This document shows, piece by piece, positions 17,347 to 39,363 of a DNA stretch of 64,000 nt. Every line of letters starts with the position of its first letter. Position 1 is the first letter of the stretch. Both the position numbers and the translations under genes were made by a program. This DNA is from a virus, in the IMG/VR virus record IMGVR_UViG_3300010150_000013, positions 1 to 64,000 of that record. The stretch is one strand, 5' to 3'. The notes under the pieces were generated by a model. The model saw nothing but the letters and a program-made list of their open reading frames with translations. It was not told the origin of the DNA and did no database searches.

Positions 17347-19677
17347 ATGATTGAACCTAGTAAACAATTACAAAAGATTTTTGATGCCTCTGTAGTAGTT
17401 GCGCAGAACCACACGCACACACATATTACTATTGAGCATTTGGTGTACTCAATTTTTGCTGACCCAGATACAGCAGGTGGTCTTAAAGAATTTGGTGCTG
17501 ATGTTGACTTTATTAAAAAGAACCTAGAGCATTACTTAAAAAACAACTTAGGTGATATTGTTTCTAAGGATAAGAATATAAATCCTAAGAAAACTGCATC
17601 TGTTGAACGTGTTTTAAATAGATGCTTTACACAAGTATTGTTTAGTGGACGTAATCAAATTGAAGTTGCTGACGTAATCATTAGTGTTATGAGCGAGAAA
17701 AACTCTTTTGCATTTTACTTCTTAGCAAAAGGTGGAATTGATAAACAGAAATTTGTAGAGCATTTCCAAGCACATCATATTGGTGAAGAAATGTTTGAAG
17801 GTGGCGGGGAAGAAGATATCAATCTAAGCCCAGATCAATTAGATAGAATTATTAATCAATTCTGTACTAACTTGTCTATGAAGGCAAAGCAAAGAGTCAT
17901 TGATCCTGTTATCGGACGTGACGAAGAAATTGAAAAAATTGAATTAGTATTAGCAAGACGTAACAAAGCAAACGTACTAATGGTTGGTGATCCAGGTGTT
18001 GGTAAGACTGCTATTGCTGAAGGTCTTGCACGTAAGATTCATGAAAAGAAAGTACCTAAGTTTATTCAAGATCATTTAGTGTTTAGTTTAGACATTAGTT
18101 CTTTAGTTGCTGGCAGTAAGTATAGAGGTGACTTTGAAGAACGTATTAAGGCAGTACTAATGGCCCTTGAGCGTAAAGGTAAAATTATCTTATTCATTGA
18201 TGAAGCACACATGATGAGTGGTGCTGGTTCAGGCGGACAAGGACAGTCAAACGACTTAGCAAATATGCTGAAGCCTGCACTTACAAAAGGCAACATGAAA
18301 GTTATTGCTTCTACTACTTGGGAAGAGTATAGAAAATCTTTTGAAAAAGATAGAGCATTAATGCGTAGGTTCCAACGTGTAACTATTGACGAACCAACAG
18401 CAGATCTTACAGTAAAAATTATTAAAGGCTTACGTAAGTACTACGAACAGCATCATAATGTTAAGATTACAAATGAAGCAATTCAACAAGCAGTAAACTT
18501 ATCTGTCAAGTACATGGCTGATAAAAAGTTACCTGACAAAGCAATTGATATTATTGATTGTGCTTCAGCAAGATACAAGTTAAATGAAACTGACGAAACT
18601 GAAACAGTTGCACAAATTGTTGACATTGAACAAGTAACATACGAACTTGCTAAAATGGTAAGTATGCCGCTAGAAACTATTTCGCAAAAAGAAAGTAACA
18701 ATCTTGCTGGACTTGATGCGTCAATGAAGAAAGCAGTATTCGGACAAGACAAAGCAGTTGAATCTATTCTTGATAAGATCTTTGTTGCACAAAGTGGAAT
18801 GAAAGATCCTGACAAGCCAATTGGTAGTTTCTTATTCTTAGGACCAACAGGAACAGGTAAAACAGAAACAGCAAAACAACTTGCAGAGAAAATGGGTATG
18901 TCACTAATACGTTTTGATATGTCAGAGTATCAAGAAAAACACAGTGTTGCAAGATTAATTGGTGCTCCTCCAGGTTATGTAGGATTTGATGATGACGCTG
19001 GCCAACTTATTAACAAGTTACAAGAAACACCTAATGCTGTATTGTTGTTAGACGAAATTGAAAAAGCACACAAAGATGTATCAAACATTTTGCTACAGTT
19101 TATGGACAACGGTTTTGTTACAGGATCAAATGGTAAACGTGCAGATGGACGTAACACTATTCTTATTATGACAAGTAACTTAGGTGCTGCTGACAATGAA
19201 TCAAAATTAATTGGCTTTGCTGATAACGAGAAAGACTCGGAAGATGATAAAGCAGTTAAAAAGTTTTTTGCTCCAGAGTTTAGAAATAGATTAGACGGTA
19301 CAGTTAAGTTTGCTAAACTATCTACTGATGTAGTTAAAAGTATTGTTCATAAGTTTATTAAAGAACTTAATACACAACTAAAAGAGAAGCACATTGCAAT
19401 TACACTTGACGAAGATACTGTTAATTGGTTATCTAAGAAAGGTTACAATCCTAAGATGGGTGCAAGGCCTTTAGGTAGATTAATTGATAAAACAATTAAA
19501 ACACCTTTAAGTAGGAGAGTGTTGTTTGGAGATTTAGTTGACGGGGGTAAAGTTGCTGTATCAATCGATAAAGACGGTCCAGCGTTTACAATTACTCCTA
19601 TGCCAAAGCCTTTGACTAAAGAAGAACGTAAAGCACAGAAGCTGGCTGCTAAGGCGCAGGCTAGTAATGATGCTTAA
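17347..19677 (+). CDS. ClpA/ClpC-type AAA+ unfoldase
   Basis: A 776-residue protein with the full Clp layout: N-domain (1-145), first AAA+ module (Walker A GDPGVGKTA near 216; FIDEAHMM), second module (Walker A GPTGTGKTE near 499; LLDEIEKAH) and C-terminal D2 small domain. The ClpP-docking IGF tripeptide is present at 622-624 (SKLIGFADNEKD), so it could use host ClpP. It ends in a Lys/Ala tail. Redirection of host proteolysis is inference. Confidence 0.9.
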   Translation: MIEPSKQLQKIFDASVVVAQNHTHTHITIEHLVYSIFADPDTAGGLKEFGADVDFIKKNLEHYLKNNLGDIVSKDKNINPKKTASVERVLNRCFTQVLFSGRNQIEVADVIISVMSEKNSFAFYFLAKGGIDKQKFVEHFQAHHIGEEMFEGGGEEDINLSPDQLDRIINQFCTNLSMKAKQRVIDPVIGRDEEIEKIELVLARRNKANVLMVGDPGVGKTAIAEGLARKIHEKKVPKFIQDHLVFSLDISSLVAGSKYRGDFEERIKAVLMALERKGKIILFIDEAHMMSGAGSGGQGQSNDLANMLKPALTKGNMKVIASTTWEEYRKSFEKDRALMRRFQRVTIDEPTADLTVKIIKGLRKYYEQHHNVKITNEAIQQAVNLSVKYMADKKLPDKAIDIIDCASARYKLNETDETETVAQIVDIEQVTYELAKMVSMPLETISQKESNNLAGLDASMKKAVFGQDKAVESILDKIFVAQSGMKDPDKPIGSFLFLGPTGTGKTETAKQLAEKMGMSLIRFDMSEYQEKHSVARLIGAPPGYVGFDDDAGQLINKLQETPNAVLLLDEIEKAHKDVSNILLQFMDNGFVTGSNGKRADGRNTILIMTSNLGAADNESKLIGFADNEKDSEDDKAVKKFFAPEFRNRLDGTVKFAKLSTDVVKSIVHKFIKELNTQLKEKHIAITLDEDTVNWLSKKGYNPKMGARPLGRLIDKTIKTPLSRRVLFGDLVDGGKVAVSIDKDGPAFTITPMPKPLTKEERKAQKLAAKAQASNDA

Positions 19678-26972: not shown

Positions 26973-27050
26973 ATGAAGAAGGTAATCGCAGGCCACAAAC
27001 TGCTTATTAGGTACTTGTCAGCCAGAAGTGACATACAGGAGAAAACATGA
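26973..27050 (+). CDS. Possible 25-residue upstream peptide of gp43
   Basis: ATG 26973 to TGA 27048-27050, overlapping the polymerase ATG (ATGA). Encodes MKKVIAGHKLLIRYLSARSD plus five residues. It could couple translation to the polymerase; no strong ribosome site is seen and chance is possible. Confidence 0.25.
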   Translation: MKKVIAGHKLLIRYLSARSDIQEKT

Positions 27051-27772
27051 GTTACGTAGACGCTTTCTATGATAGAGGGCAAGACACCATCAACGTTGTT
27101 GAACGTGACGATAAAGGCAAACGTCATTATCGAGAATACAATCCCAGACATATTTTTTATTACGAGGATCCTAGAGGAAAATATAAATCCATCTATGGCA
27201 AACCATTATCAAGGGTAACTTGTAAAAACATCAAAGAACTTCGTAAAGAACTTGCTATTCACAGCAACAAAAAACTTTATGAGAGCGACATCAATCCAAT
27301 TTATAGAATGCTTGAGGACAACTATCTCAATCAAGACGCACCTAAACTAAACGTTGCTTTTTTTGATATTGAGGTTGACTTTGATCCTGAGCGAGGTTAT
27401 GCATCTCCTGAAGATGCTTTTATGCCTATTACTTCAATTGCTGTATACATGCAGTGGATGGAAACAATGGTATGTCTTGCTATTCCGCCTAAGACACTTT
27501 CAATGGAAGAAGCAAAGAAAACTATTGAAGGCATTGACAATGTTGTGCTGTTTGAAAAAGAAAGCGAAATGCTAGATGCATTTTTAGATCTTATACAAGA
27601 TGCTGATGTACTAAGTGGCTGGAACAGCGAAGGATTTGATATTCCGTACACAGTTAATAGAATTACAAAAACGTTAAGCAAAGAAGATACAAAAAGATTA
27701 TGTCTTTGGAATCAGTATCCTAAAAAACGTGAGTATGAAAAGTTTGGTAAAACATCTGTACATATGATTTAA
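27047..27772 (+). CDS. 43: DNA polymerase gp43, N-terminal part (gp43A), exonuclease motifs I and II
   Basis: A 241-residue product with CAGGAG ribosome site. It is the N-terminal domain plus the first part of the 3'-5' exonuclease of a family-B polymerase: Exo I FFDIEVDF (D107, E109) and Exo II WNSEGFDIPY (N193, D198). The frame ends KKREYEKFGKTSVHMI-stop, while homologous sequence (TYDLIGRVHVD) continues in the -1 frame. Either a single-base deletion, a frameshift, or a genuinely split enzyme. Exo III is in the downstream frame. Confidence 0.9.
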   Translation: MSYVDAFYDRGQDTINVVERDDKGKRHYREYNPRHIFYYEDPRGKYKSIYGKPLSRVTCKNIKELRKELAIHSNKKLYESDINPIYRMLEDNYLNQDAPKLNVAFFDIEVDFDPERGYASPEDAFMPITSIAVYMQWMETMVCLAIPPKTLSMEEAKKTIEGIDNVVLFEKESEMLDAFLDLIQDADVLSGWNSEGFDIPYTVNRITKTLSKEDTKRLCLWNQYPKKREYEKFGKTSVHMI

Positions 27773-27780
27773 TTGGTAGA

Positions 27781-29715
27781 GTGCATGTTGACTCACTAGA
27801 ACTTTATAGAAAATATAACTACGAAGAACGTCATACATATCGACTTGATGCTATTGGCGAACTAGAAGTTGGCGAAACAAAAACAGTTTATGAAGGTTCT
27901 CTTGATTCACTTTACAACAACGACTTTAGAACATTTATTGAATATAACATTCAAGATACTGCACTACTTGACAAACTAGATAAGAAACTTAAATTTATTG
28001 ATCTTGCTAATACTGTTGCACATGAGAATACAGTTCTTATTCAAACTACTATGGGTGCTGTTGCTGTTACAGAACAAGGTATTATTAACGAAGCACACAG
28101 ACGTGGGTTTATTGTTCCTAACAGAGTAAGACGTGAACCAGGTAGTGAGCCTGCGGCAGGTGCTTATGTTGCATATCCTAAGAAAGGTATTCATGAATGG
28201 ATTGGTAGTGTTGACTTGAATTCACTGTATCCATCTGTTATTAGAGCTTTGAATATGGGTCCTGAAACAATTGTAGGACAACTAAGACAAGACGGAACAA
28301 AAGCACGTATTGAAGGCGAAATGGCAAAAGGTAAAAGTTTTGCAAATGCTTGGGAAGGACAATTTGGTTCTGTTGAGTTTGACTCTGTTATGGAACGTGA
28401 AGTAGGTAGGCAGATTACTATCGACTGGGAAGACAGCGACAAAAGCGATACAATTAGTGCGGCACAAGTATATGATTTAATCTTTGAAAGCAATCAGCCT
28501 TGGATGCTAAGTGCTAATGGTACCATCTTTACATATGAAAAAGAAGGTGTTATTCCTGGACTGCTAAAACGTTGGTATAAAGAACGTAAAGAAATGCAGG
28601 CAAAGATGCGTGATGCAATCAAAGCAAAGAATCCTATCGAAGAAGAGTACTGGGCAAAAAGACAACTTGTTAAAAAGATTCTACTTAACAGTTTGTATGG
28701 TGCTATTCTTAATCCAGGTTGTAGATTCTTTGATAACCGTATTGGACAGTCAACTACACTTACAGGTAGACAGATTGTTAAGCATATGAGTGCAAAGGTT
28801 AATGAGATTATTACAGGCGAGTACAACCATACAGGTAAGTCAATTGTGTATGGTGATACTGATTCATCTTACTTTAGTGCATACAGTACGTTAAAAGAAG
28901 AGATTGATAAAGGAAACATTCCTTGGGATAAAGATAGTGTTATGGCATTGTATGATCAAATCTGCGATGAAGCAAATACTACGTTTCCTAAGTTTATGGC
29001 TGAAACTTTCCATTGTCCTAAAAGCAGATCAGATGTTATTGCGGCAGCAAGAGAGATTGTTGCAAGTAAAGGTCTGTTTATTACAAAGAAAAGATATGCA
29101 GTTCTATACTATGACGTAGAAGGTAAGCGTGTAGATACTGAAGGAAAGCCAGGTAAGATCAAAGCAATGGGTTTAGACTTGAAACGTTCTGATACTCCTG
29201 TTGTTATTCAAGACTTTTTGAGTAATGTATTAGAAATGGTACTAGCAGGTAAAGAACAACAAGACGTACTAGATTACATTACAGAATTTAGAACTGAATT
29301 TAAAACAAGACCTGGTTGGGAGAAAGGTAGTCCGAAACGTGCAAACAAGATTACTGAGTACGGCAACAAAGAAAAGAAACAAGGTAAAGCAAATATGCCT
29401 GGACATGTTCGTGCAAGTATTAATTGGAATACCTTAAAGCGTATGGAAGATGACAAATATTCCATAACTATTACAGATGGTGCGAAAGTAATTGTTTGTA
29501 AAGTTAAAGATAACCCTATGGGATTCACTAGTGTTGCGTATCCTGTAGATGAATTACGTTTGCCAGAATGGTTTAAAAAACTGCCTTTCAACGATGCTGA
29601 AATGGAAAATTCAGTAATTGATGAAAAGCTAGGTAACCTTATTGGTGTGTTAGAGTGGGATATCAGCTCTACAAGAAGTGATAACAACTTTAACAAATTG
29701 TTTGATTTTGATTAA
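27781..29715 (+). CDS. 43: DNA polymerase gp43, C-terminal part (gp43B), Exo III and polymerase domains
   Basis: A 644-residue product from GTG 27781; the frame is open from 27751 and includes TYDLIGR upstream. It carries Exo III (Y55-x3-D59, EYNIQDTALLDKL), motif A SVDLNSLYPS (D145), motif B KKILLNSLYGA and motif C YGDTDS (D359, D361). The C-terminus ends FNKLFDFD, like the gp45-binding peptide of T4 gp43. With the upstream part the total (~890 aa) equals a normal gp43. No good ribosome site precedes 27781. Confidence 0.9.
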   Translation: MHVDSLELYRKYNYEERHTYRLDAIGELEVGETKTVYEGSLDSLYNNDFRTFIEYNIQDTALLDKLDKKLKFIDLANTVAHENTVLIQTTMGAVAVTEQGIINEAHRRGFIVPNRVRREPGSEPAAGAYVAYPKKGIHEWIGSVDLNSLYPSVIRALNMGPETIVGQLRQDGTKARIEGEMAKGKSFANAWEGQFGSVEFDSVMEREVGRQITIDWEDSDKSDTISAAQVYDLIFESNQPWMLSANGTIFTYEKEGVIPGLLKRWYKERKEMQAKMRDAIKAKNPIEEEYWAKRQLVKKILLNSLYGAILNPGCRFFDNRIGQSTTLTGRQIVKHMSAKVNEIITGEYNHTGKSIVYGDTDSSYFSAYSTLKEEIDKGNIPWDKDSVMALYDQICDEANTTFPKFMAETFHCPKSRSDVIAAAREIVASKGLFITKKRYAVLYYDVEGKRVDTEGKPGKIKAMGLDLKRSDTPVVIQDFLSNVLEMVLAGKEQQDVLDYITEFRTEFKTRPGWEKGSPKRANKITEYGNKEKKQGKANMPGHVRASINWNTLKRMEDDKYSITITDGAKVIVCKVKDNPMGFTSVAYPVDELRLPEWFKKLPFNDAEMENSVIDEKLGNLIGVLEWDISSTRSDNNFNKLFDFD

Positions 29716-30534: not shown

Positions 30535-32079
30535 ATGAAACCAGTCAACTTAACACCATTACAAAAGGACTATGCTGTGTATCTACCAGCGATTAGTTCT
30601 TTCTTTAGCACATATATTGCTAAACAGAGGCAAGGAGAGTTTGTTCCGAACGATCGTATTCCTAAAGGATTTGATCGTGGAATAGAAGGTATGAACTTCC
30701 TTAATGCAGACGCAGGATACTACACATACAAATATGGTTTGTATTCCGCAGGTCACGCACAATTAAACTTAGAAAAGACTATGACACAAGATGCCATGGT
30801 CCAAGAACGTGATAGAAATAACACTATGATACTAGGTGACTCGGGTGGTTATCAGGTTGGTAAAGGTGTTCTTAAATTTGATTGGTTAAACTTTGAAGGT
30901 GCTGCCGCAAACAAAACACGTGATGATATTCTTAATTGGCTAGAGCTTACAGCAGATTGGTCAATGCTACTTGATGTTCCGACTTGGGCTTGTGATCATA
31001 TTCATGCTCCTAAAACAGGACTTAAAAGTTTTGAAGATTGCTTAGACAAGACACGTTACAATAACAAGTATTGGTTAGAACGTAGACTTGGTGCTACAAA
31101 GTTCTTAAACGTTTTACAAGGATCAGACTGGGATACTGCTGAGAAGTGGTACGAAGGTGTTAAAGAGTTCTCCGATCCAAACGTTTGGGGCGATAAAGCA
31201 TGTGAAGGTTGGGCAATGGGCGGTGCTAATATGTGCAAGATGCCTATTACATTACGTAGGTTAATGACTTTGAAATTTGATGGTATGTTAGAAGGCAAGG
31301 ACTGGATGCACTTCTTAGGTACTGCACAACTTGATTGGTCATGTTACTTAACTAGTATTCAAAGACAAGTACGTAAACACATCAACGAAAACTTTACAGT
31401 AAGTTTTGACTGTGCTAGTCCGTTTATTGCAACTGCACACGGTCTTGTGTATACAAATGCACAACACACAGCAAAGCGTTGGTCAGTGATTATGGACAAG
31501 GCTCCAGATAATAAAGCACTTGCTAATCAACATGATATTCCATTTCCATTCGAAAGTGAAATTGGTAGACGTTTATCTATTGCTGACATTTGTCATTATG
31601 CTCCTGGCATGTTGAACAAGATTGGTAAAGAAGGTAAAACTAGTTGGGATAGTTTTGGTTATGCATTAATGATGGCACATAATGTTTACTGTCACATTGT
31701 AGCAGTACAACGTGCTAATCAACTTACTGACATTGAAATTAAGAAAGTAAGACCAGATTGGAGACTATGGCGTAAAGTTAAAGACGCAGATAAGAGTGAT
31801 GAATATTCGGAATGGGTACCACGTAACATTTTGTACTTCGATCGTTTTATTGAAGAACTGTTCGAACAACCTACTAAAGAGGCAGCGTTTGCAATGATTA
31901 AAGAAGCAGACAGTTTCCTTAAAAACTTAGAAGGTGCAAGACTACGTGGAGGTGTTACAAACATTTCGAATTCGTTGTTCGTTGAAGTTGATGATGAAGG
32001 TAAAGAAGAAACTCCATGGACTGACGACAGAGAAGACACTGAACTAGATAAACTAGAAAGTGAACTAACGGAGGCATAA
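30535..32079 (+). CDS. dpdA: DpdA-like DNA 7-deazaguanine transglycosylase (TGT superfamily)
   Basis: A 514-residue protein. TGT landmarks occur in order: ILGDSGGYQ (D102, as DSGGFQ in tRNA-guanine transglycosylase), FLNVLQGSD (VQG), CEGWAMGG (GLAIGG), HFLGTAQ (YLMGVG) and VSFDCASPF (D292, as the nucleophile in DCVxPTR). The Cys/His zinc site of bacterial TGT is not obvious. Phage DpdA swaps guanine in DNA for a 7-deazaguanine base. FolE, QueD-like and QueE genes follow within 9 kb. The C-terminal 35 residues are acidic and probably disordered. Confidence 0.82.
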   Translation: MKPVNLTPLQKDYAVYLPAISSFFSTYIAKQRQGEFVPNDRIPKGFDRGIEGMNFLNADAGYYTYKYGLYSAGHAQLNLEKTMTQDAMVQERDRNNTMILGDSGGYQVGKGVLKFDWLNFEGAAANKTRDDILNWLELTADWSMLLDVPTWACDHIHAPKTGLKSFEDCLDKTRYNNKYWLERRLGATKFLNVLQGSDWDTAEKWYEGVKEFSDPNVWGDKACEGWAMGGANMCKMPITLRRLMTLKFDGMLEGKDWMHFLGTAQLDWSCYLTSIQRQVRKHINENFTVSFDCASPFIATAHGLVYTNAQHTAKRWSVIMDKAPDNKALANQHDIPFPFESEIGRRLSIADICHYAPGMLNKIGKEGKTSWDSFGYALMMAHNVYCHIVAVQRANQLTDIEIKKVRPDWRLWRKVKDADKSDEYSEWVPRNILYFDRFIEELFEQPTKEAAFAMIKEADSFLKNLEGARLRGGVTNISNSLFVEVDDEGKEETPWTDDREDTELDKLESELTEA

Positions 32080-32361
32080 ATGAAGAAACTAGTAACAATA
32101 GTTGCAGCAATTATGTTTGCAACAATAGCACAGGCAAATGATAATCCAATTATCAAGAATGTTGAAGGCGCAAAAGACTTTGCGGTAAACAACAAGGTAT
32201 CACAGTTTGTTATTCAAGAATATAACGATACTGTAGCATATCAAAAAGATAGTTGGCAACAGGGTAAAGACCAACTTGCAGATAATAAAGAACAAATTGT
32301 TGGTATCTTTAATAACGTCAAAGGTGCATTTACGCACTACTTTGGTAACGAAAGTCAATAG
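32080..32361 (+). CDS. Small secreted/periplasmic protein
   Basis: A 93-residue protein with a clear signal peptide: KK, hydrophobic LVTIVAAIMFATI and cleavage after AQA (residue 19). The mature 74 residues are polar and helical (KDSWQQGKDQLADNKEQIVG). Unusual among replication genes; it might act in the envelope during early infection, for example superinfection exclusion, but there is no direct evidence. Confidence 0.65.
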   Translation: MKKLVTIVAAIMFATIAQANDNPIIKNVEGAKDFAVNNKVSQFVIQEYNDTVAYQKDSWQQGKDQLADNKEQIVGIFNNVKGAFTHYFGNESQ

Positions 32362-32370
32362 GAAGTAATT

Positions 32371-32895
32371 ATGAAAAGGTCATACAAACAAGGCACAAGC
32401 AGTGACGCAACATATTTTGTTGGTGTTGAAGTAGAACATACTCCTGCATATGGTAGGAAAACATTGTTCGTAACAGGACTTCAAAGCGTTGATGAAATTG
32501 CCAGCCAGTATTCAAAGAACGATTGCGAACATATCTTCTTTGGTGCAAACCACAGTTTTCAACCAAGTCAAGATTCAGACTACGGTGAGTGGGAGGCTAT
32601 GATCGAACCATTCCTAGATGATGACATTTGTTGCACTTTGGACATTCCAATTGCAAATGCGGAAGATATGCTTGAAAGTTCTTTAATTGAATTTGACAAC
32701 TTTATTCCGCAACTGCGTGTACCTATTCCTTATATTGAACAGTTTGGGTACAATGCTACAATTAAAATTGATGACAAAGATTTTAAAGCAACAAATCCAG
32801 GTGTTTGGACACACAGTATACACGAACTAATGGACCGTTCAAAATTTACACCTTGGCGTGAATATGAAAATGATGATATCGTAGATAATGATTGA
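32371..32895 (+). CDS. Conserved unknown protein beside QueD-like gene
   Basis: A 174-residue acidic protein with good ribosome site (GGAAG). Contains FVGVEVEHTPAYGRKTLFVT and NDCEHIFFGANHSFQ, the latter possibly metal-binding from its His/Cys content. It is always likely to be co-translated with the next gene (the stop overlaps the -35 box at 32892). Perhaps linked to the deazaguanine pathway by position only. Confidence 0.6.
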   Translation: MKRSYKQGTSSDATYFVGVEVEHTPAYGRKTLFVTGLQSVDEIASQYSKNDCEHIFFGANHSFQPSQDSDYGEWEAMIEPFLDDDICCTLDIPIANAEDMLESSLIEFDNFIPQLRVPIPYIEQFGYNATIKIDDKDFKATNPGVWTHSIHELMDRSKFTPWREYENDDIVDND

Positions 32896-32920
32896 CACTA
32901 GAATTAAAGGGTGCTATAAT
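32892..32920 (+). promoter_or_regulatory. Consensus sigma70 promoter overlapping the QueD-like start, TTGACA-17-TATAAT
   Basis: TTGACA 32892-32897, 17-bp spacer, TATAAT 32915-32920: perfect. The -10 contains the first two bases of ATG 32919, so a transcript from it would begin near 32927, inside the gene. It may serve downstream genes, or a shorter product from ATG 32946. Confidence 0.75.
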
Positions 32921-33380
32921 GAAACAAGAACGTTATTACGACTACATGGGGCGTAGAATGAGAGAAGAAGATATGAAACAAGGCAAAGAAAATGCATTGC
33001 AAAACGCAAAGCGAATGATTTGGGTAACCTTTACAAAAGAAGGTATCCACAAGTATCCTGCGGCACTAGATGATCCTAGTCTTGCAACAGGTGATGAATA
33101 TGATGTAAGTTTTTTGGGTTATCCACACAGACACATATTCCATTTTAAAGTAGGTATCGCTGTAACACACAATGACAGAGATATTGAGTTTATTCAGTTT
33201 AAACGTTGGATGGAGAAGTTATACGCAGAAAAAACATTAGAACTTGACTATAAGTCCTGTGAAATGATGTCAGATGATTTGTGGCATCAAATTACAAACA
33301 AATATCCCGGACGTGAAGTCCACATCGATGTCTCCGAAGATGGAGAGAACGGTGCCCACATTGAGTATGCTAGTTATTAA
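32919..33380 (+). CDS. QueD-like / 6-pyruvoyl-tetrahydropterin synthase-family protein
   Basis: A 153-residue protein from ATG 32919 (AAAGGG at 32906). EGIHKYPAA gives the first zinc His and PHRHIFHFKVGI the HxH pair of the PTPS/QueD fold; DRDIEFIQFKRWMEKLY matches the DFxxLK helix, LDYKSCE the Asp of the catalytic pair (His changed to Tyr), and DVSEDGENG the substrate Glu. The catalytic Cys four residues before HxH is missing. QueD makes 6-carboxy-tetrahydropterin from FolE product; whether this variant does is open. Confidence 0.6.
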   Translation: MKQERYYDYMGRRMREEDMKQGKENALQNAKRMIWVTFTKEGIHKYPAALDDPSLATGDEYDVSFLGYPHRHIFHFKVGIAVTHNDRDIEFIQFKRWMEKLYAEKTLELDYKSCEMMSDDLWHQITNKYPGREVHIDVSEDGENGAHIEYASY

Positions 33381-33392
33381 AGGAGACCTAAA

Positions 33393-33593
33393 ATGGGTTA
33401 CTGGCAAGACCGCCCTGAGGTGGTTAAGATCTTCAATGATCTTGACTTGTATAGAGACTTTTGTCGTTACAACGGCTTTAAGTTTAATGAAAAAGATCTC
33501 TATAAAAAAGAGAGTCGCGCATGGAGGGCTTTCGAGAATCGCAACAATCATAAGAGGGCGTTTCGAAACAAATTTAACAAACGGAGAAACTAG
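33393..33593 (+). CDS. 66-residue basic protein
   Basis: Excellent ribosome site AAAGGAG. MGYWQDRPEVVKIFNDLDLY is followed by a strongly basic C-terminus (RAFENRNNHKRAFRNKFNKRR), consistent with nucleic-acid binding by charge. No family recognised. Confidence 0.6.
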   Translation: MGYWQDRPEVVKIFNDLDLYRDFCRYNGFKFNEKDLYKKESRAWRAFENRNNHKRAFRNKFNKRRN

Positions 33594-34634
33594 ATGAAAA
33601 TATGGCTTGTTGACTTAGAAGCAGTCGAAACACGTTACACTAAGCAGTGGAAAACTGAATTTCCTAAACTGCTAAAAGCCAACGGTCATGACGTTCATGT
33701 AGTTAACGGAGGAGATACGCCTCAGGCTACAACACCTGGGGCGTTTCTTAACTTTGGCGGAACTAATGTTTATAAAAGTAAACAACTAGAGCAAATTGCA
33801 GAGGCGTTTTGTAATGGAGAAGTTAAGGACGGCGATTATTTTCTGTACACTGATGCCTGGAATCCTACAGTGGTACAATTACGCTACATGGCAGAACTAT
33901 TGGGTATTAACATTCGCATTGGTGGTATGTGGCATGCTGGTAGTTATGATCCACAAGATTTTTTAGGCAGACTAATAGGTGATAAGCCTTGGGTTAGAAA
34001 TGCAGAACGTAGTATGTTTGAATGTTATGATCATAATTATTTTGCAACAGAGTTTCATATAGATATGTTCTTTCAATCATTTCCAGAACTAGATAGATCT
34101 AAAGTTGTACAAACTGGTTGGCCATTTCATTATATGGATAGTACATTAACTATGTACAAAGGAATGCCAAAGCGTGACTTAATTTTATTCCCTCATAGGA
34201 TTGCTCCTGAAAAGCAAGTTGAAATATTCCGTGATCTTGCTGATCAACTTCCACAATATGAATGGGTAGTTTGTCAAGAACGTGAACTATCAAAGAACGA
34301 ATATCACAACTTACTAGGAGAAGCAAAACTTGTGTTTAGTGCTAACTTGCAAGAAACACTAGGTATTAGTTGGTATGAAGGTGCTCTTGTTGGAGCATTG
34401 CCTATGGTACCAGACAGATTAAGTTATACTGAAATGGGTTTGCTGCCTTTCAAATATCCTAGTAATTGGACAATAGATTGGAAAACCTATATTTCCAATA
34501 GAGAGGCTGTGAAAGAACGTGTAATTGACTATATGGAAAATTACAAAAGTTTTCTTCCTAGCCTAAATAAACAAGTAGAAACACTGAATGAAAAATATTT
34601 CAGTTGCAATGATCTACTAAAGGTGCTAAAATAA
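33594..34634 (+). CDS. GT-B-type glycosyltransferase-like protein
   Basis: A 346-residue protein with two Rossmann-like halves: MKIWLVDLEAVETRY start, and a C-terminal nucleotide-sugar half with LILFPHRIAPEKQVEIFRDL, VFSANLQETLGISWYEGALV and GALPMVPDRLSYTEM, which is the E-x7-E region of GT4/GT1 enzymes. It sits inside the DNA-modification and replication region rather than with the minus-strand sugar genes, so glycosylation of DNA is one option; a nucleotide-sugar donor is unknown. Confidence 0.7.
   Translation: MKIWLVDLEAVETRYTKQWKTEFPKLLKANGHDVHVVNGGDTPQATTPGAFLNFGGTNVYKSKQLEQIAEAFCNGEVKDGDYFLYTDAWNPTVVQLRYMAELLGINIRIGGMWHAGSYDPQDFLGRLIGDKPWVRNAERSMFECYDHNYFATEFHIDMFFQSFPELDRSKVVQTGWPFHYMDSTLTMYKGMPKRDLILFPHRIAPEKQVEIFRDLADQLPQYEWVVCQERELSKNEYHNLLGEAKLVFSANLQETLGISWYEGALVGALPMVPDRLSYTEMGLLPFKYPSNWTIDWKTYISNREAVKERVIDYMENYKSFLPSLNKQVETLNEKYFSCNDLLKVLK
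34604..34632 (+). promoter_or_regulatory. Sigma70-type promoter, TTGCAA-17-TAAAAT
   Basis: TTGCAA 34604-34609, 17-bp spacer, TAAAAT 34627-34632, followed by a 47-nt leader with a small AGGCA/TGCCT hairpin (34646-34661) and CGGAG ribosome site for folE. Confidence 0.5.
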
Positions 34635-34678
34635 TATTATTAAAAAGGCAATCCACTGCCTAAACATCGGAGAAATAA

Positions 34679-35362
34679 ATGGAAAAAGTAAAAGAAATTA
34701 AAAAACGCTTAGAAGAAGCAGGTCTTAGATATTGGGCGAATGACAATATCAGTGAAGTGCTTCAAGAAGGCGATAAACAACAACTTATCGAAGAAGCAGT
34801 TCCTGCTTTTGAAAATGTGTTACAGCACTTGTTGATTGATACAAAAACAGATCCTAACAGTCAAGATACTGCAAGGCGTATGGCAAAGATGTACATCAAT
34901 GAAATTATGAGTGGACGTTATAATCCAATGCCTAACCCAAGTAGTTTTCCTAACTACATCGAAGATGGTTATGAAGGTATGCTAGTTGTACGTAGTGAAC
35001 TTACAAGTTTGTGTTCACATCATCATCAGACTGTTAAAGGTGTAGCATACATTGGTATTATTGCTGGTCCTAAGTTACTTGGTCTTAGCAAATACACAAG
35101 GATTGCACAATGGTGTGCTATGCGTGGAACACTACAAGAAGAACTAAATGTTATGATTGCAAACGCAATACAAAAAGAAACAGGCAGTGAAAATGTAGGT
35201 GTCTATGTACAAGCAACACATGGTTGTTGCGAAAACAGAGGTATTAGAGCTCATAGCAGTTTAACACAAACAACTGTATTACGTGGTGCATTTAAAAATG
35301 ATCCTGCAACTAAGAAAGAGTTTATGGATAATGTTAAACTGCAACAACAGTTTGCTTGTTAA
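34679..35362 (+). CDS. folE: GTP cyclohydrolase I
   Basis: A 227-residue protein with the FolE signature: SLCSHHHQTVKGVAYIGI (zinc Cys and catalytic His), LLGLSKYTRIAQW (GLSKxxR), and ATHGCCENRGIRAHSSLTQT (zinc Cys, substrate loop). It turns GTP into dihydroneopterin triphosphate, the first step to folate and to 7-deazaguanines. With DpdA-, QueD-like and QueE genes nearby, the second use is more likely here. Confidence 0.93.
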   Translation: MEKVKEIKKRLEEAGLRYWANDNISEVLQEGDKQQLIEEAVPAFENVLQHLLIDTKTDPNSQDTARRMAKMYINEIMSGRYNPMPNPSSFPNYIEDGYEGMLVVRSELTSLCSHHHQTVKGVAYIGIIAGPKLLGLSKYTRIAQWCAMRGTLQEELNVMIANAIQKETGSENVGVYVQATHGCCENRGIRAHSSLTQTTVLRGAFKNDPATKKEFMDNVKLQQQFAC

Positions 35363-35370
35363 GGAGTAGT

Positions 35371-35586
35371 ATGCCAATACCAGAAAAAATAATAGTTCCA
35401 GCAAATAGAGATCCAGGTGATAATCATTTTGCTGTAAGTTTAGTAAAGAGTATATTTAGAATAGTCGGCTGTGGGTGTTTAATTTACGGAGGCTATATGT
35501 TAGAACAATTTGGTTTGCTTTTTATAGCAGCCGGAGCAATCTTTGCCTTAGCAGAAGTGCTAGGCATTATAGAGGAGATAGTATGA
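35371..35586 (+). CDS. Small two-TM membrane protein
   Basis: A 71-residue protein from ATG 35371 with AAGGAG just upstream; the TTG at 35356 is not needed. TM segments SIFRIVGCGCLIYGGYML and LLFIAAGAIFALAEVLGI. Overlaps the next gene by 4 bp (ATGA). Confidence 0.6.
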   Translation: MPIPEKIIVPANRDPGDNHFAVSLVKSIFRIVGCGCLIYGGYMLEQFGLLFIAAGAIFALAEVLGIIEEIV

Positions 35587-35813
35587 ACATTCATAAGAAA
35601 AGAGTTTACAGTGTATCAGAGCCAAAGAAGCCTGAGGACTGCATGGCGCTTACTCCAGCAGAAGCACTTATGTATAATCTAAAAGGTATTAGATTAATTG
35701 ACATGACTGAAAAGCATGGCATGACAGTGCAAAGACTAATGAATAGTCGAAAAGATACATCACATGAAAGGTATACTTATGGGACCATATTCGGAAACAA
35801 AACAACTGCATAG
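35583..35813 (+). CDS. Small protein of unknown function
   Basis: A 76-residue basic protein from ATG 35583, ATGA-coupled. Contains DCMALTPAEALMYNLKGIRL and HGMTVQRLMNSRKDT. No family recognised. The next gene starts inside it in another frame. Confidence 0.55.
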   Translation: MNIHKKRVYSVSEPKKPEDCMALTPAEALMYNLKGIRLIDMTEKHGMTVQRLMNSRKDTSHERYTYGTIFGNKTTA

Positions 35814-35979
35814 AATTAGCAATATTAAAAAGGTACTTGCTAATAAAATGTTGCCTGAAGATACTCGTAGGATTTGGGAAACTAAACTTAACAGTATTGC
35901 AGTTGACGAAGATGAGTATAACAAAAGAGTAACAGAAACTTTTAAAAATGTGAAGAGAGGTTATATTCACAAATGTTAA
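35779..35979 (+). CDS. Small helical protein
   Basis: A 66-residue protein; ATG 35779 is chosen because GAAAGG lies 7 bp upstream at 35765-35770. It overlaps the preceding gene by 35 bp and the next by 7 bp. Basic, helical (HRISNIKKVLANKMLPEDTR). Function unknown. Confidence 0.55.
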   Translation: MGPYSETKQLHRISNIKKVLANKMLPEDTRRIWETKLNSIAVDEDEYNKRVTETFKNVKRGYIHKC

Positions 35980-36395
35980 CAAGGTTTTTAGAATGGGTTG
36001 GAAGAAAGCGTACTATCTATGATAGGACTGGTAGTATTCCTTATTTGGTTAGATACTATTTGTTTTTAAAAGACAGAAAAGACTTTCCTTTTAATATTAC
36101 ACTACACAAAGTACTAGTAAGTGATGAACCTACACTACATGATCACCCATGGAGTTGGGGAGCATTAATTCTAAAAGGCGGCTATTGGGAACATACACCA
36201 GAAGGTAAGTTTTGGCGTGGTCCTGGTAGTATACGTTTTAGAACAGCAAAAGATTTACATTGGTTAGAACTTGCAAAAGATAAAGATGGGAATGAAATTC
36301 CTTGTTGGAGCATTTTTTATATGGGTAAGAAAGCACAGCAATGGGGTTTTGTTAAGAATGGTAAGTGGATACATAACGAGGAATACTTAAAATAA
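35973..36395 (+). CDS. Cupin-like conserved phage protein
   Basis: A 140-residue protein. SDEPTLHDHPWSWGALILKG followed by GYWEH gives the HxH...E/H spacing of a cupin first motif, and DLHWLELAKD supplies a later His as in motif 2. The beta-rich body supports a double-stranded beta-helix. Enzyme or sugar-isomerase activity is possible but not shown. TAATG-coupled to the next gene. Confidence 0.6.
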   Translation: MLTRFLEWVGRKRTIYDRTGSIPYLVRYYLFLKDRKDFPFNITLHKVLVSDEPTLHDHPWSWGALILKGGYWEHTPEGKFWRGPGSIRFRTAKDLHWLELAKDKDGNEIPCWSIFYMGKKAQQWGFVKNGKWIHNEEYLK

Positions 36396-36928
36396 TGATT
36401 AAGAAGCACTATTATAGTTGGCAAGATGTTGAAAAAATGTGTGTAAGCATAGTCAATCAGATGTACAAAAGTAACTGGAAGCCTGATTATATTGTAGGAA
36501 TAACAAGAGGTGGGAATGTTCCTGCTACTATTATTAGTAACATGACTGGCATACGTTGCGAAGCATTGAAAGTAAGTTTACGTGATGATAGTCGTGATAG
36601 CGAAAGCAACTGTTGGATGGCAGAAGATGCATTTGGTTATGGTGACGGCAAAAGTTATCCTAAAGCACGTAAAAATATTCTTATTATAGATGACATCAAT
36701 GACACTGGTGCTACGTTTAATTGGATTATGGAAGATTGGAAAGCAGGTTGTTTACCTGATAGCGAAGCATGGCAAGACATTTGGCAAGAAAATGTTCGCT
36801 TTGCATCACTTACTGAAAACCTAGCAAGTGATTTTGATAAGGTAGATTATACATGTCATGAAGTTAATAAAGCCGAGGAAGATGTTTGGTTAGTTTATCC
36901 TTGGGAAAATGTTGCTGACTATGCGTGA
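36395..36928 (+). CDS. Purine-type phosphoribosyltransferase
   Basis: A 177-residue type I PRTase: YIVGITRGGNVPATII (pyrophosphate loop) and NILIIDDINDTGATF (PRPP-binding motif), with a C-terminal WLVYPWE as in xanthine/hypoxanthine enzymes of the Gpt/HprT-related group. It would salvage a base or, in this context, possibly handle a modified or displaced guanine; the base specificity is unknown. Confidence 0.8.
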   Translation: MIKKHYYSWQDVEKMCVSIVNQMYKSNWKPDYIVGITRGGNVPATIISNMTGIRCEALKVSLRDDSRDSESNCWMAEDAFGYGDGKSYPKARKNILIIDDINDTGATFNWIMEDWKAGCLPDSEAWQDIWQENVRFASLTENLASDFDKVDYTCHEVNKAEEDVWLVYPWENVADYA

Positions 36929-37307
36929 AGATTTAATGGTACAACAACAAGTATCAAACGTATGGCAACATATGGTTGGTGTTATTTGTTTAAATCAAGT
37001 AAACAGGCGACAAACAAAGCCTGTTCTTACAAAATTGTTTAACAAGTATCCTACTGCACATAGTTTATTGCGTAGTTGTACTATTCCTATGCTAGAAGAA
37101 TTATTAGAGCCGTTAGGTATGCAACGTGTAAGAGCAAAAAGAATATATAAGATGAGTGTCCAGATTGAAAACTGGAACGGAGAAGATGCAACTGAATTAT
37201 ATGGTATAGGAAAATACGGTAATGATAGTTACAGAATATTTTATAAAAATGATATACCATCAGATGTAGAAGATAAAGAATTGAAGAGGTATATTGAACA
37301 TGGTTAA
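36909..37307 (+). CDS. HhH-GPD DNA glycosylase-like protein, MBD4 type
   Basis: A 132-residue protein (ATG 36909; ATG 36921 also possible). ATELYGIGKYGNDSYRIFY is almost the MBD4 helix-hairpin-helix (LHGIGKYGNDSYRIF), and DVEDKELKRYIEH follows where MBD4 has PEDHKLNKYHDW with its catalytic Asp. Family members remove T or U from G mismatches, or damaged bases. At ~130 aa it is a minimal catalytic domain. It may act in repair or in host-DNA attack; untested. Confidence 0.75.
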   Translation: MLLTMREDLMVQQQVSNVWQHMVGVICLNQVNRRQTKPVLTKLFNKYPTAHSLLRSCTIPMLEELLEPLGMQRVRAKRIYKMSVQIENWNGEDATELYGIGKYGNDSYRIFYKNDIPSDVEDKELKRYIEHG

Positions 37308-37410
37308 GTTTATTAAGACATGGCTAGGAATCACTAAGGATAGAATAGTTGGTGAGAAGCTCATGGAAAATATGGAAAAGAACGATAACACTAAAAAAGA
37401 TCAGGAGTAA
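37300..37410 (+). CDS. 36-residue charged peptide
   Basis: ATG 37300 overlaps the previous stop. Product begins MVKFIKTWLGITKDRIVGEK and is Lys/Glu/Asn-rich to the TAA at 37408. Its position and coupling suggest translation; function unknown. Confidence 0.5.
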   Translation: MVKFIKTWLGITKDRIVGEKLMENMEKNDNTKKDQE

Positions 37411-37412
37411 AT

Positions 37413-37640
37413 ATGACGACCTATGATAATAAATGTACAGTTACATGTACCGACAATGGCAAAGTTGCTGAAGCAGAAGTTGATCGTATTGAACCTAAAG
37501 ATTATTTAAAAATCTTTATGGCAGGCAATAAGATACACATGAAGTGGAACGGTAGAGTATTTGTAGGAAATGCATTTGGTTTTGAATTTACTACTCCAGG
37601 TCCAAGGCAATTTAACAACGCAATTCGAAGAGGCTTTTAA
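37413..37640 (+). CDS. Small beta-rich protein
   Basis: A 75-residue protein with CAGGAG ribosome site. Contains KIHMKWNGRVFVGNAFGFEF, beta-like. The stop overlaps the next start (TAATG). Resembles other small marine T4-like proteins but no function recognised. Confidence 0.55.
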   Translation: MTTYDNKCTVTCTDNGKVAEAEVDRIEPKDYLKIFMAGNKIHMKWNGRVFVGNAFGFEFTTPGPRQFNNAIRRGF

Positions 37641-38014
37641 TGAAGGCTGATACTTTACAAATAGCAAGAGAAGAACAAAGAGCACCGTGGACAGAAGTTG
37701 AAATAGACACACGTGACTTTACTGTTTTTCGTGACAAGTATCCTGTAACCGAAGGACATTTATTAGTTGTACCCAAAGAAGCAACACAAGAAAACATTAT
37801 GAAATGTTTTAACTTTGCTATTACTATGGGTTATGATAATGTTGCAAGTGAAAAGACTAATATCACAGGTTACAATATAGGTTTAAATGTAGGTGAAAGT
37901 GCAGGACAAACAGTCATGTATCCACATGTACATTTAATATTCCGTCGTAATGGGGACATGGAAGATCCGAAAGGAGGCGTCAGAGGCGTCATCCCATCAA
38001 AGCAAAAATATTAA
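37640..38014 (+). CDS. HIT-family protein with altered triad
   Basis: A 124-residue protein with the HIT fold: FRDKYPVTEGHLLVVPKE, NVGESAGQTVMYPHVHLI and GGVRGVIPSKQKY. The triad HxHxH reads YPHVH: the first His is Tyr, while the middle His (nucleophile) and the third are kept. HIT enzymes hydrolyse nucleotide phosphoramidates or Ap4A, or transfer nucleotides. Activity should be retained or tuned, but this is inference. Confidence 0.85.
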   Translation: MKADTLQIAREEQRAPWTEVEIDTRDFTVFRDKYPVTEGHLLVVPKEATQENIMKCFNFAITMGYDNVASEKTNITGYNIGLNVGESAGQTVMYPHVHLIFRRNGDMEDPKGGVRGVIPSKQKY

Positions 38015-38023
38015 GGAAAGGTT

Positions 38024-38230
38024 ATGACATTGAGAGAAACTTTAATTAGTGCAGCTCGTAAACATGCAGAAGCAGACATTGCGGTGCACAAAGCAAATAT
38101 TGAAGTCTATATGCAGCAGGTAGTCGGTATTGGAGAACATTCTGATATTGTTGAAACTATCCAAAAAGAATTGGATAAAATGGCTGCTGCAACTGATAGA
38201 CTTGAAATGCTAGACAAGCATTTTAGCTAA
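38024..38230 (+). CDS. Small helical protein
   Basis: A 68-residue, His/Ala/Glu-containing, coiled-coil-like protein (ETLISAARKHAEADIAVHKA). Good ribosome site (AAGG). No family recognised. Confidence 0.55.
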   Translation: MTLRETLISAARKHAEADIAVHKANIEVYMQQVVGIGEHSDIVETIQKELDKMAAATDRLEMLDKHFS

Positions 38231-38231
38231 C

Positions 38232-38414
38232 ATGGGTTGGCAAATTAAACTTGAAGAAGATCCGGACACAAAAGAGTTAATCTTACCTCTACCAACGGAT
38301 CTTCTTAACCAAATGGGTTGGGATATTGGAGATGACCTCGTTTGGGAGGAGCATATGCCTGGCCAATCTTACACTATTAAAAAGGTTGACAAACCTGGTG
38401 GAAAGAAGGTATAA
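38232..38414 (+). CDS. AbrB/MazE-like small protein
   Basis: A 60-residue protein. ELILPLPTDLLNQMGWDIGD followed by DLVWEE matches the swapped-hairpin AbrB/SpoVT pattern (G.IxLPxxLxxxLGxxxGDxLxw). Such proteins bind DNA as dimers or act as antitoxins; no toxin gene is next to it. The queE promoter lies in its 3' end. Confidence 0.6.
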   Translation: MGWQIKLEEDPDTKELILPLPTDLLNQMGWDIGDDLVWEEHMPGQSYTIKKVDKPGGKKV

Positions 38415-38415
38415 T
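38386..38415 (+). promoter_or_regulatory. Consensus sigma70 promoter 6 nt from the queE ATG, TTGACA-18-TATAAT
   Basis: TTGACA 38386-38391, 18-bp spacer, TATAAT 38410-38415. The predicted start, 7 nt after the -10, is the A of ATG 38422. An AGAAGG at 38404-38409 could serve only transcripts from further upstream. Confidence 0.8.
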
Positions 38416-38421
38416 AGTACT

Positions 38422-39363
38422 ATGAACGATAAAATACAGACACTCGAACAACACGACTTTAGTAAAACAATAGAAAAAAAGTTTTACTATTCTGAAATAT
38501 TTTATAGTATTCAAGGAGAAGGACATTACACAGGAGTTCCGACTGCTTGGATTAGATTCTTCTTGTGCAATTTACAATGTAATGGGTTTGGACAATTAGA
38601 TCCAACTAATCCAGATACATATGAATTGCCGTTTGAGGACTTTGATGTTGATAGTGTAAAACGTGTTGAGGACTTGCCTGTATGGGAAAAAGGGTGTGAT
38701 AGTAGTTACACTTGGGCTAAGAAGTTTAAGAAACTAATGGGTCAAGAAACTCCTACTGCTATGGCAAATAAGATTGTCGACTGCATAAAGAATGATAGCA
38801 ATCCAGAAGGTAAGTTTTTACATCCTGTAAGTAAACAACATCAACACTTGTGTTTTACAGGTGGCGAACCTTTGATGGTTACAGGACAACAAGCAGTGGT
38901 AGGTATATATAACGAATTAAAAAGACAAGGCAATTTGCCTGGTAGCATGACATTTGAAACTAACGGTACACAAAAACTTAGAGAACCATTTTTAGAATGG
39001 GCTAAGAGTATTGACACAGAAATATTTTTCAGTTGTAGTCCTAAACTATTTACTGTATCAGGTGAGAAACCTGAAAAGGCTATCAAGCCCGAACTTGTTG
39101 CTGAATATTTACAGGCATCTACAAAAGGACAACTTAAATTTGTTGTAGGTCCGAAACAGCGTGAGTGGGATGAAATGGAAGAAGCAGTTGAAAAATTTAG
39201 AAGTGTTGGTGTTGATTGGCCAGTATGGATTATGCCAACAGGTGCAAGAGAAGAAGAACAAACAGCAGGTGCAGGTGCAGTTGCACAAAAAGCATTTCAA
39301 AGAGGATATAATGTAGCCGCAAGGGTACACGTATACTTGTTTGGTAATGCAATAGGAACCTAG
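38422..39363 (+). CDS. queE: 7-carboxy-7-deazaguanine synthase (radical SAM), insertion variant
   Basis: A 313-residue protein from ATG 38422. YSIQGEGHYTGVPTAWIRFF is the QueE N-terminal signature, followed by C49 and C53 (FFLCNLQC); the third cluster Cys appears to be C92 in EKGCDSSYTW, after a 38-residue insertion. LCFTGGEPLM is the SAM-binding GGEP motif, and ETNGTQ follows. The enzyme rearranges 6-carboxy-tetrahydropterin to the 7-deazaguanine ring (CDG). With FolE and QueD-like it feeds the DpdA-like enzyme. QueC is not seen. Confidence 0.85.
   Translation: MNDKIQTLEQHDFSKTIEKKFYYSEIFYSIQGEGHYTGVPTAWIRFFLCNLQCNGFGQLDPTNPDTYELPFEDFDVDSVKRVEDLPVWEKGCDSSYTWAKKFKKLMGQETPTAMANKIVDCIKNDSNPEGKFLHPVSKQHQHLCFTGGEPLMVTGQQAVVGIYNELKRQGNLPGSMTFETNGTQKLREPFLEWAKSIDTEIFFSCSPKLFTVSGEKPEKAIKPELVAEYLQASTKGQLKFVVGPKQREWDEMEEAVEKFRSVGVDWPVWIMPTGAREEEQTAGAGAVAQKAFQRGYNVAARVHVYLFGNAIGT

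Follow-up and report, generated by a model that had tools for sequence, protein, structure and literature searches.

A QueC-less 7-deazaguanine DNA-modification cassette in large phages and its putatively glycosylated product

Which base does a virus place in its DNA when it carries a guanine-exchanging protein together with genes for 7-deazaguanine synthesis, and QueC is nowhere to be found? The question is raised by positions 30535-39363 of a 64,000-nucleotide window, the whole stretch of DNA analysed here, which belongs to a 74,475-base virus record (IMGVR_UViG_3300010150_000013), a contig that is itself a fragment. All cassette open reading frames (ORFs) lie on the plus strand, with further small ORFs, and they encode a DpdA-like protein with the fold of tRNA-guanine transglycosylases (TGTs), a paralogue of QueD, FolE, QueE and a GT4-type glycosyltransferase. 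A sequence-only reading had placed the first four of these genes within about 9 kb, and Pfam, PHROG and structure matches bear this out. The identification of the locus as a QueC-less 7-deazaguanine modification cassette is well supported, and the QueD paralogue, a protein family that we call f402 and the fixed GT4 glycosyltransferase make it a new variant of the known systems. On the strength of genomic linkage, we moderately favor a glycosylated product.

The first gene (30535-32079, plus strand, 514 residues) has no match in Pfam, PHROG or NCBIfam, and PDB sequence searches with its profile gave nothing meaningful. An AlphaFold2 model of the protein (mean predicted local distance difference test score, pLDDT, 60; predicted template modeling score, pTM, 0.68) was more informative. 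All 50 of the Foldseek matches listed for it in the PDB were TGTs (best E 1.3e-4, probability 1.00), and VIA superposed it on TGT structures with Z up to 14.7 and a root-mean-square deviation (rmsd) of 4.9 over 284 aligned residues, so that the structural comparison which the sequence-only reading had proposed did recover a TGT barrel. Foldseek matches among viral models included a protein of Vibrio phage nt-1 (E 1e-5), the TGT of phage Motura, and a 596-residue entry that shares its length with a relative in Vibrio phage 2.275.O, a coincidence that does not establish identity. D102 and D292, singled out earlier as DpdA motifs, are invariant in 158/158 family members, as are D147 and Q107; we take the catalytic roles of the aspartates, in the motifs DSGG[YF]Q and [FY]D, to be those of bacterial TGT.

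Several observations weigh against too confident an assignment. A mean pLDDT of 60 is modest, residues 96-114 around D102 score under 50, and HHalign gave only a weak link between the window TGT and E. coli Tgt (13.5%, E 0.002) and none to the DpdA of phage 9g (0.5%). The same comparison with the DpdA2 family, phrog_10773, reached 93% (E 3.5e-7). The TGT fold is well supported, and the protein forms a distinct subfamily, nearest DpdA2 of the three compared. Its profile found no match in phages nt-1, Dp-1, CAjan, 7-11 and 9g, nor in Campylobacter phages CP220/CP21 and Cellulophaga phage phiSM, where silence is uninformative by itself. The protein was not classed as a canonical tRNA-guanine transglycosylase, as it has no CxCxxC, the cysteine part of the zinc site CxCxxC...H; the corresponding motif in E. 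coli Tgt reads CDCYTC.

The fold is nevertheless common to the TGTs of tRNA, and the TGT-like protein and the Que genes might serve to raise queuosine in host tRNA with no DNA modification at all, a role that Hutinet et al. 2019 (PMC6884629) propose for phages encoding the pathway without DpdA. We regard this as very improbable. The window protein lacks CxCxxC, its viral structure matches include the nt-1 protein, the cassette comes after the DNA polymerase gene, as in 9g, and with no QueC found there would be no phage-made preQ0. An ARAGORN scan of the window detected no tRNA genes, in agreement with the earlier remark that queuosine tRNA genes are absent. The window TGT is best described as a predicted DNA-acting enzyme that would exchange guanine for a 7-deazaguanine.

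How far the window could carry the synthesis of that base is given by the established pathway, in which FolE (GTP cyclohydrolase I; 34679-35362, plus strand, Pfam 1.1e-37) would convert GTP to dihydroneopterin triphosphate (H2NTP), a QueD encoded by the host or elsewhere in the phage would convert H2NTP to 6-carboxytetrahydropterin (CPH4), and the radical SAM enzyme QueE would turn CPH4 into 7-carboxy-7-deazaguanine (CDG). The QueE gene (38422-39363, plus strand, phrog_2076 1.5e-51) is listed from a TTG at 38326, the ATG at 38422 appearing the likelier start. Its product shows a CX3C motif and then a 38-residue insert ahead of the third cysteine; inserts of 21-80 residues at this point occur in 97/116 QueE ORFs, in QueC and QueC-less loci alike. 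Neither QueC (PF06508) nor canonical QueD (PF01242, even at E 10) was found by profile on the 74,475-base contig, both profiles giving matches in control genomes, and QueC was likewise not found in the complete records of phages Paride, ACP17 and Phosso. The lack of QueC noted in the sequence-only reading has therefore held up beyond the window itself. Because the contig is incomplete, a contribution from genes of the host or from phage genes lying far away is conceivable.

The simplest answer to our question would be CDG itself, incorporated without any further step after FolE, QueD and QueE. CDG is the product of QueE in the established pathway, QueC was either not found or represented by partial, weak matches, and Hutinet et al. 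2019 (PMC6884629) allow that one phage lacking QueC alone could carry CDG. The sequence-only reading had likewise expected a base closer to CDG than to preQ0 or archaeosine, provided that no QueC lay elsewhere. We now think this quite unlikely. It assigns no function to three conserved families, the QueD paralogue, f402 and GT4, which are unmatched in 80 QueC loci; because the cassette holds all three, CDG is more likely an intermediate than the end product.

The QueD paralogue (32892-33380, plus strand) matches phrog_17812 at 1.1e-33, and its start is uncertain (TTG 32892, ATG 32919 or later). The description of this gene as QueD-like survives as regards kinship, HHalign against phage QueD giving 87% (E 3.7e-6, 113 columns), and not as regards the catalytic residues. 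The zinc-ligand histidines H14, H40 and H42, including the HxH pair, are invariant in 24/24 sequences, while a leucine occupies the position of the catalytic cysteine, four residues ahead of H40, and the DHT (Asp-His) segment is gone. With the catalytic Cys and Asp-His missing, this ORF was not classed as a canonical QueD, that is a CPH4 synthase. ACP17 possesses both a canonical QueD and the paralogue, and Paride two 6-pyruvoyltetrahydropterin synthase (PTPS) genes besides it; the paralogue is therefore no QueD substitute in those phages. It is a candidate CDG-processing enzyme and may be DpdL, a CDG decarboxylase reportedly described by Cui et al. 2023. In Chryseobacterium phage MA9V-3 (L104:7428-8306) the paralogue forms a fusion with an endonuclease VII-like domain.

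Directly upstream lies f402 (32371-32895, plus strand, 174 residues), with homologues in ACP17 (ASD50402, 35%) and Paride (Paride_0169, 45%). PDB sequence searches with the paralogue and f402 profiles gave nothing meaningful, Pfam, PHROG and NCBIfam held nothing useful for f402, and HHalign of f402 against QueC, QueD and QueE found nothing. Among species genomes, f402 occurred on four contigs (L396-L399), all from metagenome-assembled genomes (MAGs), three of them with the phage cassette, and these are probably phage contigs binned with bacteria.

The glycosyltransferase (33594-34634, plus strand, 346 residues) is 46% identical to Paride_0116, 49% to its relative in Phosso and 40% to ASD50404 of ACP17. 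It too has nothing useful in Pfam, PHROG or NCBIfam and nothing meaningful in a PDB sequence search with its profile. Its AlphaFold2 model (pLDDT 80.7) was matched by Foldseek to BshA (E 2.1e-9) and by VIA to a mannosyltransferase (Z 22.8, rmsd 3.2, 307 aligned), and by this model the protein is a GT-B fold of GT4 type. R202, K207 and E262 are invariant in 257/257 sequences. The first position of the EX7E motif, which in the window is formed by E254 and E262, is glutamate in 129 and aspartate in 128 of the 257. The same cassette slot is taken by divergent GT4 subfamilies (21% identity, HHalign 99%), and the Pfam model PF00534 matches 19/20 members of a sister subfamily and 0/30 of the window subfamily. 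An early idea that the protein resembles the tRNA-queuosine mannosyltransferase was set aside, no result supporting it; that enzyme is not among the 50 VIA matches listed, which excludes nothing. We infer from genomic linkage that the glycosyltransferase probably transfers a sugar to the DNA base.

This linkage was measured in five sets of viral loci. The window TGT served as the query for set A, and the GT4 of Synechococcus phage BUCT-ZZ01, which belongs to a divergent subfamily, for set B. For sets D and E the queries were the paralogues of Rhizobium phage RHph_I1_18 and of BUCT-ZZ01, respectively, and control set C started from the QueC of Vibrio phage 2.275.O. Sets A, B, C and D are the best 80 loci each, set E is uncut at 42, and many loci end at contig ends. 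At E 1e-4, set A contained TGT in 80, f402 in 76, the paralogue in 70, the glycosyltransferase in 64 (61, and a further 3 that fell in the sister subfamily), FolE in 59, QueE in 35, a phosphoribosyltransferase (PRT) in 31 and QueC in 0; the corresponding counts in set B were glycosyltransferase 80, paralogue 75, TGT 74, f402 68, FolE 59, PRT 51, QueE 26, QueD 6 and QueC 0. The 80 QueC loci of set C presented a different picture at the same threshold (QueC 80, QueF 57, FolE 47, QueD 44, QueE 41, DpdA2-type TGT 13, PRT 9), with GT4, the paralogue, f402 and the window-type TGT all at 0.

When only loci with at least 8 kb of sequence downstream of the window-type TGT start were considered, the glycosyltransferase was present in 160/160 (A 36/36, B 56/56, D 43/43, E 25/25) and QueC in 0/160; comparison over 1 kb of TGT gene sequence left 135 distinct loci among the 160. 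Starting instead from the paralogue and requiring at least 4 kb either side of it, set D had the glycosyltransferase in 46/48 loci and TGT in 46/48, and set E in 23/23 and 22/23 respectively, with QueC in 0/71 of the D and E loci. The two set D loci without the glycosyltransferase are also without a TGT match. In the order of scored genes the glycosyltransferase is next to the paralogue, and the gene arrangement recurs in many contigs and is therefore not due to chance. PRT is less constant, being found, where at least 9.5 kb lay downstream, in 25/34 loci of A, 41/48 of B, 17/37 of D and 14/21 of E.

These figures are open to several objections. Because the sets overlap (at least three contigs are common to A and E) and draw on related phages, the counts cannot be treated as independent; for set B the glycosyltransferase was itself the selection criterion. 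Furthermore, a GT-A-like family unrelated to GT4 occurs in 62/80 QueC loci at a median of 2.1 kb from QueC, and in 0 loci of sets A, B and D and 2/42 of set E. Of 151 ORFs chosen from 26/80 QueC loci, 149 were scanned and 21 of these belong to this family, some members of which give weak Anp1/Glyco_transf_21 Pfam matches. It (e.g. L187:10071-11135; QueC loci L186-L265) also occurs in some Sinorhizobium, Caulobacter and Stenotrophomonas phages and in RHph_I1_18. Some QueC phages may thus rely on a different glycosyltransferase, unless the family has no part in the pathway; the signature of the window cassette is the trio of GT4, paralogue and TGT, not the presence of a glycosyltransferase alone. 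One QueC locus (L240) gave a GT4-profile match, at E 0.1, when the threshold was loosened to E 10. Taken together, the contig sets examined point to two kinds of phage 7-deazaguanine cassette, one with QueC/QueF and the other with the QueD paralogue and GT4, which did not mix in those sets.

Isolated phages follow the same pattern. Paralogue-bearing isolates comprised Paride and its kin, Phosso, ACP17, X1, BUCT-ZZ01, RHph_I1_18, Ahp1, Bakedbeans, D479 and MA9V-3, together with the Cellulophaga phiST group, for which phi19:2 stands, and Faecalibacterium phage Roos, the last examined around the gene only and kept outside the isolate counts. All five groups with both paralogue and TGT possess GT4 relatives: Paride and Phosso with a window-type TGT, and ACP17, X1 and BUCT-ZZ01 with a DpdA2-type one, their paralogue, GT4, FolE and QueE being arranged around a phrog_10773 TGT. 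In Sinorhizobium phage Phosso (469 kb; L083 12001-13647, L097) some 170 kb separate the TGT gene from the clustered genes for the paralogue, GT4, FolE and QueE. Conversely, GT4 was found in none of the whole records of the six paralogue isolates without a recognized TGT (RHph_I1_18, Ahp1, Bakedbeans, D479, MA9V-3 and phi19:2); the DpdA2 profile was unmatched in the same whole records, and the window-type profile in the whole records of four of them and, for Bakedbeans and MA9V-3, in flanks of about 8 kb. Vibrio phages 2.275.O and nt-1, which have TGT and QueC and no paralogue match, have no GT4 match either (0/2). In these phages GT4 therefore tracks the pair of paralogue and TGT, which is what one would predict for a sugar destined for a paralogue-shaped, TGT-inserted base. 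None of the 11 paralogue records searched yielded a full-length QueC. Partial QueC-family matches, over the cut-off in D479 (6.4e-9) and G013 and below it in X1 (6.6e-4), G002 and G015, are read as other PP-loop ATPases.

An appreciable, though unlikely, alternative is that the final base is 2'-deoxy-7-deazaguanosine (dDG) or another non-glycosylated derivative, with the glycosyltransferase merely carried along and acting elsewhere, on a host surface glycan or a nucleotide. Its 7-carboxy counterpart (dCDG) and dDG were both reportedly described as phage bases by Cui et al. 2023, the free base 7-deazaguanine (DDG) offers no easy acceptor for a sugar, and the six isolates just named, phi19:2 for example, have the paralogue without a GT4 match. 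The same six, however, also lack a recognized TGT, and against a passenger gene stands its presence in all 160 extended loci, next to the paralogue, in a slot filled in set B by a divergent GT4.

A glycosylated product also has to be weighed against four records, Xanthomonas phages PhiXhv-12, -15 and -16 and Erwinia phage Ep032, in which a distant relative of GT4 (25%) is present and the paralogue search gave no hit. In PhiXhv-12 a Gat-QueC (Pfam QueC 2.3e-49 plus a glutamine amidotransferase domain) precedes this relative (E 5e-29 with a widened profile) by two genes, with a PIG-L N-acetylglucosamine (GlcNAc) deacetylase between them, and Ep032 has QueC-family and GT4 matches at the same places. 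The paralogue, FolE, QueE, TGT and f402 had no match within 10 kb of the GT4 relative in either record. A QueC-family protein near the GT4 relative in both records examined counts against exclusivity: GT4 proteins also occur outside QueC-less cassettes. At the same time, the PhiXhv-12 locus is an independent tie of this family to 7-deazaguanine genes. It resembles the window in having a GT4 relative near a deazaguanine-type, QueC-family protein, and differs in having Gat-QueC and a PIG-L gene in place of the paralogue. The BshA-like fold of the glycosyltransferase and the deacetylase hint at an amino sugar, and the locus is perhaps another sugar-bearing deazaguanine pathway. Gat-QueC, the PIG-L deacetylase, the GT4 relative and a GFO_IDH_MocA oxidoreductase stand in a row there (L425:7783-11866), with GNAT acetyltransferase domains upstream.

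A different acceptor altogether would be a hydroxymethylated pyrimidine, as in phage T4, with the deazaguanine pathway running separately. The window glycosyltransferase would resemble the T4 alpha- and beta-glucosyltransferases, GT-B enzymes that decorate a modified base after replication; the T4 enzymes act on 5-hydroxymethylcytosine (hmC), an established activity, whereas the window enzyme is of GT4 type and would act on a different base, and we do not claim membership of their family. The thymidylate synthase/hydroxymethylase family PF00303 was found in Paride and Phosso, which is compatible with a hydroxymethylated acceptor and counts against ours. It was not found in the other 15 of the 17 records searched, including the GT-bearing ACP17, X1 and BUCT-ZZ01, though IMG/VR contigs, most or all of them fragments, make up 12 of the 17, which lessens the force of this result. 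With PF00303 in only 2/17 records, hmC or hydroxymethyluracil (hmU) is an unlikely acceptor, and the glycosyltransferase sits within the Que cassette; we find a pyrimidine acceptor scarcely credible.

We therefore return to a glycosylated 7-deazaguanine and propose a model for its formation. CDG made by the FolE, QueD and QueE steps would be acted on at its 7-carboxyl by the paralogue, our best guess being decarboxylation to 7-deazaguanine, although another conversion at C7 is conceivable, and f402 would possibly assist. The TGT-fold protein would then exchange guanine in replicated phage DNA for the modified base, the PRT (36395-36928, plus strand) could recycle the released guanine to GMP, and GT4 would add the sugar to the inserted base, perhaps protecting the DNA from host nucleases. 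The sequence-only reading had guessed that the glycosyltransferase and the PRT belong to the pathway, a guess strengthened by their conserved presence in the cassette. Pfam identifies the PRT domain, and the nearest NCBIfam model is xanthine phosphoribosyltransferase at 9.7e-12, under that model's cut-off. The main chemical difficulty for our model is that a paralogue acting as a plain decarboxylase leaves 7-deazaguanine with no C7 hydroxyl or amine and hence without an obvious acceptor for O-glycosylation. Either the paralogue would do other chemistry, or f402 would supply a handle, or the sugar would be attached to carbon.

In our most far-reaching proposal, large phages, including the Paride/PA5oct jumbo group of Pseudomonas aeruginosa, would carry a glycosylated 7-deazaguanine made through QueC-less CDG, the paralogue, TGT and an interchangeable GT4. 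In its boldest form the product would be a C7 C-glycoside enabled by decarboxylation, GT4 swaps would give different sugars in different phages, much as the linkage on hmC depends on whether an alpha- or a beta-glucosyltransferase acts, and PhiXhv-12 would offer a parallel with an amino sugar. We put this broader scheme forward tentatively, at slightly less than an even chance.

Comparison with known systems helps to place the cassette. DpdA and DpdA2 were described by Hutinet et al. 2019 (PMC6884629), and the nt-1 DpdA2 given there as YP_008125322 is phrog_10773. The nt-1 system shares with the window a TGT-fold inserter with FolE and a QueD-type gene nearby; it differs in that QueC adjoins DpdA2, there is no GT4 or paralogue match and the window TGT profile is silent. 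In the dG+ cassette of phage 9g (DpdA, FolE, QueD, Gat-QueC, QueE) the Que genes follow the DNA polymerase, as in the window; unlike the window, it has Gat-QueC, no paralogue or GT4 match and a DpdA unmatched by the window TGT profile. Cui and colleagues reportedly described in 2023 the dCDG and dDG phage bases together with DpdL and DpdA3, in a scheme said to include no glycosyltransferase; those phages would resemble the window in their QueC-less endpoints and a CDG-processing step. Cellulophaga phage phi19:2 has FolE, QueD and QueE in addition to the paralogue.

Among the Pseudomonas jumbo phages compared (Paride, PA5oct, MIJ3 and Callisto), Paride is like the window in having a cluster after its DNA polymerase genes with TGT (41%), the glycosyltransferase (46%), the paralogue (58%), PRT and QueE, and unlike it in that the glycosyltransferase stands ahead of the paralogue and that f402, FolE and the two PTPS genes are located elsewhere. 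TGT and f402 relatives in these phages are annotated as hypothetical, and the glycosyltransferase is annotated as a GT4 protein in vB_Pa-PAC2. A 2026 jumbo-phage review (PMC13282480) refers to deazaguanine incorporation as predicted for jumbo phages, and MIJ3 appears there in a list in which hypermodified DNA is among the items. The string 'deaza' is absent from the accessible text of the Paride, PA5oct and Callisto papers (PMC10761892, PMC6950013 and PMC11079468), none of the other words looked for occurs in that of the MIJ3 paper (PMC6892783), and no paper on glycosylated deazaguanine DNA was found in the open-license PMC literature, most of it judged by title and the first lines of the abstract. 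If our model is correct, a sugar-bearing purine joins the known DNA hypermodifications, and conserved genes of jumbo phages of therapeutic interest (Paride, PA5oct) acquire a role. Even without the sugar, a widespread QueC-less cassette whose TGT is unmatched in Pfam, PHROGs and NCBIfam would be useful to recognize.

The remaining plus-strand members of the locus are small. A 93-residue ORF (32080-32361) had a tblastn match at just 3/85 loci. A cupin or cysteine-dioxygenase-like protein (35973-36395, phrog_4786) was found across many related contigs and had a tblastn match at neither the Paride nor the ACP17 locus, and Pfam identifies an HhH-GPD/endonuclease III-like protein (36909-37307) and a HIT-domain protein (37640-38014). 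A megablast search of 14 kb against phages gave zero matches. The DNA polymerase upstream of the cassette is apparently in two ORFs, 27047-27772 and 27781-29715, the second of which matches the profile only from position 259; in Paride, a homing endonuclease is flanked by two DNA polymerase ORFs. Elsewhere in the window, 5754-7373 encodes a tryptophan halogenase-like protein (phrog_2928, 6e-147) and 17347-19677 an ATP-dependent protease-like protein (phrog_4871, 8e-248).

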